DNA of 57,294 nt from Thermohalobacter berrensis. Lineage in GTDB: Bacteria > Bacillota > Clostridia > Tissierellales > Thermohalobacteraceae. The stretch lies in the NCBI RefSeq assembly GCF_003609645.1, contig NZ_MCIB01000013.1, forward strand, positions 1 to 57,294, read 5' to 3'. Below the pieces are notes generated by a model. The model did not search any database. It saw nothing but the letters and a program-made list of their open reading frames with translations, and was not told the origin of the DNA. How positions within the stretch are numbered: position 1 is the stretch's first letter; each line of letters starts with the position of its first letter. Of this stretch, positions 329 to 852 are shown piece by piece. Made by a program: the position numbers and the translations under genes.

Positions 329-369
329 AATCCTCATAGACAATTAGAAAAGATTAAAACACAAAAAAA

Positions 370-800
370 TAAAAGCCGAGAACATAGTGATCTACCTTAC
401 ACCACCATACATAGCTTATTACCAAGCCATGATCTTTCGACCATGACCAAGCAGGTCACTACCTATGATAGTGGTCTGTTCAACCCTGCATGATATCTTA
501 ACAGCCCTATACAACCTCTCGGCTGTATAGAACCATTAGTAGAATTAAAAAATTCTACATCGACATCATACAGGATCTTAGCTCGACCTTATACGATAGG
601 TTGGGACCCTATTGCAATCAAAATAATCGACTACAATAGAACCTTTCCCAACCATATAAGATCTTCCCTCCGACTGCATGTGAGCCTTTCGACCCACATG
701 CAATCTTCGGCCGACCCATATATACCCCAAAATAGGAGCATATATGAGTCTGGGCTCAACCACAATGTTCCCGACACTAATATTATGTGTAGCTATATAA
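370..800 (-). ncRNA. Large structured RNA candidate (family unresolved)
   Basis: The minus strand folds into an elaborate set of helices. A 15-bp stem at 672-705 is closed by a GAAA tetraloop. A 10-bp stem at 507-530 has a GAGA tetraloop, and a stem at 428-445 has a GAAA tetraloop. There are also a 12-bp hairpin at 717-746, a 55-nt domain at 599-653 extended by 588-594/654-660, and an 8-bp hairpin at 539-558. The 10-bp closing stem 485-494/565-574 makes a three-way junction around two of these. All the G-U wobbles and GNRA loops make sense only on the minus strand, which fixes the orientation. I see no RNase P, tmRNA, SRP, T-box or group II domain V signature. The transcript could run to the terminator near 216, about 585 nt in all. 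The exact ends are uncertain. Confidence 0.68.
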
Positions 801-852
801 ATAATATACAAAAATTTTTGAAAAATAAAATTGAAGGTTTATAGGTTATGAA

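Follow-up and report, generated by a model that had tools for sequence, protein, structure and literature searches.

A large structured noncoding RNA with a predicted forespore-type promoter in Thermohalobacter berrensis and other Bacillota

Large structured RNAs without known function are few. OLE, ROOL and GOLLD are large, multi-arm structured RNAs which, in the part of a report drawn on here, are reported to form homo-oligomers composed of RNA only (PMC12286853). Another conserved structured RNA of Bacillota, the raiA motif or ModT, has been studied in a spore-former, as related in the portion of its account used here (PMC11706538). For sporulation itself there is Bvs196 (S357) of Bacillus, a sporulation sRNA of 294 nt encoded between hinT and ecsA, whose sigma-F/sigma-G promoter has been shown, to go by the part of the paper relied on (PMC9147052). 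Sigma-F and sigma-G consensuses overlap in Clostridioides difficile (PMC7438776, cited from part of its text).

The DNA considered here, the window, is a stretch of 57,294 nucleotides of the Thermohalobacter berrensis genome. On its minus strand, at ~775-365, it contains one copy of a structured RNA of ~410 nt. The minus strand of 200-820 has a folding energy of −248.8 kcal/mol. Dinucleotide shuffles, 20 in number, average −158.1 ± 5.0 (z −18.0) and none of them (0/20) was as low, while the plus strand of the same region is far weaker (z −6.2). The original prediction, of a large unassigned structured RNA that makes sense on the minus strand only, is borne out by these values; the promoter, the spread of the family and the tie to sporulation described below formed no part of it. 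The features are as follows.

804-809, minus strand: −35 element GTATAT of a predicted forespore-type promoter, from a motif in two blocks whose position upstream of 107 distinct homologues hardly varies.
781-787, minus strand: CATAATA, the −10 element of this promoter prediction, from the upstream motif, the matrix and the comparison of copies.
365-775, minus strand: the RNA proper, ~410 nt, with arms P2-P6 and P1 closing them, from fold and covariation; its ends are placed by reference to the promoter, the P1 helix and the U-run.
758-775, minus strand: P1, 5′ strand, pairing with 392-375, from homologue folds and covariation.
713-750, minus strand: P2 hairpin, from alignment, covariation and homologue folds.
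666-710, minus strand: P3 hairpin on a 2-bp base, with a GAAA tetraloop in the window copy, from alignment, covariation and homologue folds.
585-663, minus strand: P4, a long arm with an internal loop, from alignment, covariation and homologue folds.
482-577, minus strand: P5 arm with a three-way junction, of which P5a is variable and P5b conserved with a GNRA loop (GAGA in the window).
400-473, minus strand: P6, a long P4-like arm with an internal loop and the tip motif GUCGAAAGAU, from alignment, the R2 covariance model (see below) and homologue folds.
375-392, minus strand: P1, 3′ strand, from homologue folds.
362-374, minus strand: U-rich tract directly after P1, resembling the 3′ end of an intrinsic terminator, from the sequence.

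The seven or more helices originally claimed can be placed as P1 to P6 with their sub-helices, the three GNRA tetraloops are those of P3 (GAAA), P5b (GAGA) and P6 (GAAA) in the window, and the three-way junction falls within P5 in both subfamilies of homologues. The two subfamilies share a plan in which P1 closes the structure and is followed by P2, P3, P4 with its internal loop, P5 with its junction, and P6 with its internal loop. Minimum-energy folds contain two or three GNRA loops in 39/44 homologues, and one or none in 5/44. Some 75% of the window RNA is paired. Its conserved unpaired stretches, none longer than ~8 nt, are motifs of junctions and loops, among them GAGCC, GAGCNAA, GAACGAAC and the GNRA loops. 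In several distant homologues the model of P6 scores P4 about as highly as P6 itself (for P4 and P6 respectively, 54.9 and 56.9 bits in L157, 52.9 and 51.5 in L114, 49.8 and 53.8 in L185), and this likeness suggests that the two arms arose by internal duplication. Inspection of P4 by eye found no 11-nt tetraloop receptor.

The host genome has three near-identical copies of the RNA, each within ~1.1 kb of a contig end. A blastn search of 60 relatives gave long matches in seven, at identities down to 65% or over part of the RNA; there are tandem copies in relatives, one genome having three, spaced ~490 bp apart, and another having two. For wider searching, covariance models were made of arms P2-P4 (R1) and of P6 plus the 3′ strand (R2), with E-values that are rough owing to a short calibration. 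At E ≤ 0.001, R1 matched in 11/249 genomes of the order, 33/391 from the class and 65/398 from the phylum, the latter two draws being samples; these prevalences are lower bounds, since any search over more than 40 genomes was strictly filtered and scored no more than 6 to 11 candidates in each genome. Over the three draws there are 106 distinct R1-positive genomes, a few of them weak (G428 34.0, G707 31.7 and G695 39.9 bits). When 38 loci were scored with both models, a full R2 match lay downstream of R1 in 34, and a partial one only in four (L101, L105, L106 and L107).

In a collection of named genomes, a degenerate pattern that leaves out the promoter, P4-P6 and the 3′ end found at least 117 stretches. 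Among the loci listed, 79/80 have an R1 match at 1e-6 or better, a figure that is partly circular since the pattern was derived from the family; three of the listed loci are truncated at the locus end, and the L164 match is beside the pattern and not over it. A listed locus from Acidobacteria (L184) has no R1 match and is a chance match to the pattern. Loci from the named collection and from the genome draws overlap, some coming from the same genome. Named hosts among the matches listed include Pelotomaculum, Desulfosporosinus, Propionispora, Lucifera, Carboxydocella (C. thermautotrophica included), Tepidanaerobacter, Sporotomaculum and Desulforamulus putei. Two copies (L117, L139) come from metagenome bins that carry the labels Bacillaceae and Tepidibacillus, yet have scores like those of Clostridia-type copies; their placement may reflect transfer, deep ancestry or mis-binning.

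Covariation very strongly backs one secondary structure, and the RNA is a structured noncoding one. In a 13-sequence alignment the consensus contains 147 pairs, and for 59 of them at least one sequence has both sides changed. A larger close set (51 full-length close homologues, 44 after redundancy removal, effective number 26) was aligned without regard to structure and all its column pairs were ranked by corrected mutual information. Forty of the top 50 covarying pairs, and 57 of the top 100, are RNAalifold consensus pairs, where chance would give ~0.09 per 50 and 0.18 per 100. As the RNAalifold consensus itself draws on covariation, the count was redone against the minimum-energy fold of the window copy, a single-sequence fold in which no covariation is used, and that fold matches 38/50 and 54/100. 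The second subfamily (44 distant homologues, not thinned for redundancy) gives 45/50 and 67/100 against its own consensus, so that the covariation which the original prediction had suggested looking for in homologues is found in both sets. In the R1 alignment, which covers the 5′ half in 98 distinct rows, 96.6% of cells pair, compared with only 34-43% in controls with the partners shifted by 1-3 columns, and 56/65 pairs have changes on both sides; having been fitted to the covariance model, this alignment is biased towards it.

A search of the homologues for coding signal, also suggested originally, upholds the claim that the region has no real protein gene. No reading frame is conserved: counted from the 5′ end, none of the three sense frames has fewer than two stops in any of the 44 homologues (medians 6, 7 and 7.5). 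The longest stretch free of stops, taken over all six frames, has a median of 76.5 codons and a maximum of 137, and 134/435 internal gaps have lengths divisible by three. A protein gene, including the 77-aa ORF at 578-811 on the minus strand, is rejected on the lack of a conserved frame.

Where the RNA ends was originally placed otherwise. A transcript of 430-585 nt had been envisaged, bounded by a terminator near 216; the hairpin at that place belongs to a separate array of ~35-nt repeats, with 131 matches in the genome, and the promoter position together with the U-rich stretch after P1 points to a transcript from about 775 to 365. P1 and the U-run at 374-362 would thus be the RNA's own end. 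A T-run of at least four is present at the 3′ end of 29/44 homologues and lacking in 15/44, and over the 44 the T fraction is 0.45 after P1 versus 0.33 further downstream.

The repeat downstream is degenerate and in tandem (GTCCGTTACTTA plus a small hairpin), and occupies 210-345 on the minus strand of the window. Such arrays (e.g. L290-L292) are at many places in the genome, on at least 11 contigs, and the one array inspected to its end finishes in a T-run. An inverted repeat that starts GGGGACAG and ends CTGTCCCC is at 46-92, at the contig start, and is possibly a small mobile repeat; a similar one follows the ~35-nt array in L290.

The 115 R1 hits yielded 114 with enough upstream sequence, 107 of which are distinct. 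These upstreams contain, at a nearly fixed place, the motif G[TAC]ATA-N17/18-CATA[AC]TA (in fuller layout G[TAC]ATA[AT], 12-13 nt, NGGNCATA[AC]TA). In the window the promoter-like pair is at 809-781, just outside the span originally reported, with the −10 element ending ~6 nt before P1. A matrix trained on the upstreams themselves scores 97/107 at 12 bits or more and 10/107 below, and the window's promoter scores 14.3 bits with a model from 95 upstreams that included neither the window nor the loci drawn from its order. Unsupervised motif finding gave 16.65 bits per sequence, against 8.1-8.3 in five shuffled sets. A strict sigma-F/G pattern is present in 60/107 upstreams, while shuffles have a mean of 5.3 and a maximum of 16 in 200.

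The Bacillus sigma-G consensus is approximately GHATR-N17/18-CATNNTA, and sigma-F has GG ahead of the −10. The motif upstream of the RNA resembles this forespore sigma-F/G promoter type. A sigma-A promoter is set aside, as the frequency of a sigma-A-like pattern (13/107 upstreams versus 9.0) is near shuffle level. Sigma-E and sigma-K promoters, judged by consensus, are discounted since their −10 consensuses differ from CATA[AC]TA.

The RNA-trained matrix was also applied to protein genes. For 30 SASP genes from 14 RNA-positive genomes (68 matches, 30 with loci used), 10/30 upstreams reach 12 bits, with a median of 10.9; for 196 other genes, script-called ORFs of which some starts are approximate, 2% do so and the median is 4.8 (SASP versus others, p 1.3e-12). 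Upstreams of spoIVA, a mother-cell sigma-E gene, reach 12 bits in 1/20, with a median of 5.1. The sole spoIVA match is the host genome's own (17.0 bits, G000:C1:76040-76249, in L310), the other 19 being below. The matrix is not fully specific for forespore-type promoters, given this host spoIVA score, the 20/30 SASP upstreams under 12 bits and the 10/107 upstreams of the RNA itself that are also below. The promoter is present in each tandem or paralogous copy compared, and the sequence that compared copies share starts adjacent to the −35 or up to about a dozen nt upstream, save that the first two copies of one genome (G026) are identical over the entire stretch compared. Because the upstream motif is sigma-F/G-like and the RNA-trained matrix also finds SASP genes, transcription of the RNA in the forespore, by sigma-F and/or sigma-G, is considered quite probable.

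The distribution of the RNA follows that of sporulation in one direction. SpoIVA (TIGR02836) exceeds its cut-off in 43/43 of the genomes from the order and class draws that have the RNA, and is detected in 64/65 of those from the phylum draw, the exception (G695) being one in which the RNA match is weak. The background is 281/391 for the class genomes and 336/398 for those of the phylum, giving hypergeometric p values for co-occurrence of 1e-5 and 9e-5 respectively, which overstate independence since each draw contains related genomes. The reverse does not hold. Most genomes with SpoIVA are without an RNA hit (in the class, 33/391 are RNA-positive and 281 have SpoIVA), absences which rest on searches that give lower bounds, and the RNA is on this count not needed for sporulation in general.

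The explanation proposed is that the gene stands alone and encodes a large noncoding RNA, made in the forespore and acting as a folded scaffold; taken whole, it is put forward tentatively, as a good possibility. Computation shows the fold and its covariation, the spread of homologues, the conservation of promoter-like and end signals and the lack of a conserved frame, while forespore expression is inferred from these. RNA polymerase with sigma F and/or G would start at ~775 and transcribe leftwards, stopping at P1 and the U-run. In the folded RNA, P1 would close a set of five arms (P2-P6) whose junctions and GNRA loops are conserved. The product would then accumulate in the forespore and act in its folded form. 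Its likeliest role would be to scaffold an RNP or an RNA oligomer that stays in the spore, in preference to that of a messenger or of an antisense strand left open. Granted forespore expression, this scaffold role, the most speculative part, seems to us somewhat to be favoured. Tandem genes in some species would suit a need for high dosage. A bolder version, possible though doubtful, makes the RNA a building block of the dormant spore, a bulk forespore product, encoded by tandem genes in some species, that is packed into the spore core as a pseudo-symmetric particle with or without proteins; the pseudo-symmetry is suggested by P4 and P6 looking like copies.

Gene neighbourhood has a bearing on how such an RNA might act. 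No neighbour family occurs at more than 7/79 listed loci, the largest cluster being ABC ATPases at 7/79, and the RNA therefore probably acts in trans. Related FAD-dependent oxidoreductase genes are near the RNA in 4/79 listed loci (L060 4527-5753, L061 3630-4859, and also L154 and L159), sharing its strand at one locus and lying on the other strand at three; two of these genes have PF01266.

Chief among the rivals is a regulatory sRNA of the forespore that base-pairs with mRNAs, as Bvs196 of Bacillus velezensis does. It would share a promoter of the same kind and a similarly stand-alone gene. The extent of pairing tells against it, as do the conserved single strands, which are short junction and loop motifs with no long seed, and the long helices kept by compensatory change. 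With some three-quarters of the RNA paired, tertiary contacts or protein binding suit these features better than a long antisense seed would, and we consider the base-pairing alternative unlikely.

A scaffold made in the forespore has also to be set against a large ribozyme-like RNA, or an OLE-style RNA of a membrane RNP, whose role would lie in catalysis or stress and have no tie to the forespore. Size, complexity and a range within Bacillota are OLE-like, as far as the part of the OLE literature used here goes, and the promoter motif is not fully discriminating. No widely common neighbour gene accompanies the RNA, though, its upstreams have the sigma-A-like pattern at near shuffle level, and the Rfam search gave nothing over it. 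At gathering score the whole window has five tRNAs only, and nothing reaches that score over the RNA in the window or in the 16/80 listed loci scanned (one of them the chance locus L184), in keeping with the earlier failure to match it to known families. A permissive scan of 1-1200 gave sub-threshold matches on the RNA strand to mir-103 (22.4 bits), LOOT (21.1, cut-off 46.4), mir-3202 (19.6), ceN106 (17.3) and ARRPOF (12.8, cut-off 127.2), all taken as chance. The RNA accordingly belongs to none of the Rfam 15 families searched, a set that includes 6S, LOOT and ARRPOF and presumably OLE, ROOL, GOLLD, raiA and HEARO. An OLE-style role without the forespore is rated as quite improbable.

That the RNA is a selfish or mobile element is very improbable: its patchy occurrence (11/249 genomes of the order), three near-identical host copies near contig ends and tandem copies elsewhere would fit, but the phage and plasmid collections have no blastn match to it and the viral contigs none by exact pattern, so that an origin from phage, plasmid or virus is rejected; no mobility gene or other partner protein is widely common, structural selection extends across the phylum, and repeats, which adjoin two of the three host copies, can explain the closeness to contig ends.

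No published description of the RNA was found among the titles and abstract openings searched, a scope with bioRxiv and subscription papers outside it. With this and the lack of an Rfam match, we take it to be a new RNA family within a known kind, that of large bacterial structured RNAs, in which its forespore-type promoter and its breadth are unusual. It is widespread, its fold is strongly conserved, the alignments suffice to found an RNA family, and the promoter tells where to look for the RNA. Should the forespore reading hold, it becomes directly testable far beyond Bacillus which RNAs endospores incorporate; were the bolder version, of a building block of the dormant spore, true, this would be the first phylum-wide class of RNA dedicated to endospores, as far as our searches show.

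Of the described systems, 6S RNA shares with the window RNA the character of a stand-alone bacterial RNA, but it has its own Rfam family and there is no overlap. In Propionispora a 6S RNA (RF00013) is at L112 2198-2370, ~130 nt downstream of the RNA. The raiA motif or ModT, in the portion of its account used, is like the window RNA a conserved structured RNA of Bacillota, and the window RNA has no Rfam match to it. With OLE, ROOL and GOLLD, as represented in the part of the report drawn on, there is a likeness in large size, many arms and unclear function; homo-oligomers have been reported for those RNAs. The window RNA differs from them in having no Rfam match to them, a forespore-type promoter, and no occurrence in the phage and viral collections searched. 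Bvs196, compared here by description only and from part of its paper, is also a stand-alone structured RNA of a spore-former with a sigma-F/sigma-G promoter, shown there and predicted here. The window RNA differs in its ~410 nt, its six arms, its mostly Clostridia-type lineages and its want of fixed neighbours (where Bvs196 has its hinT-ecsA setting, the neighbours at the 79 listed loci were compared by clustering). Joining none of the families tested, the RNA resembles both Bvs196 and the large ornate RNAs.
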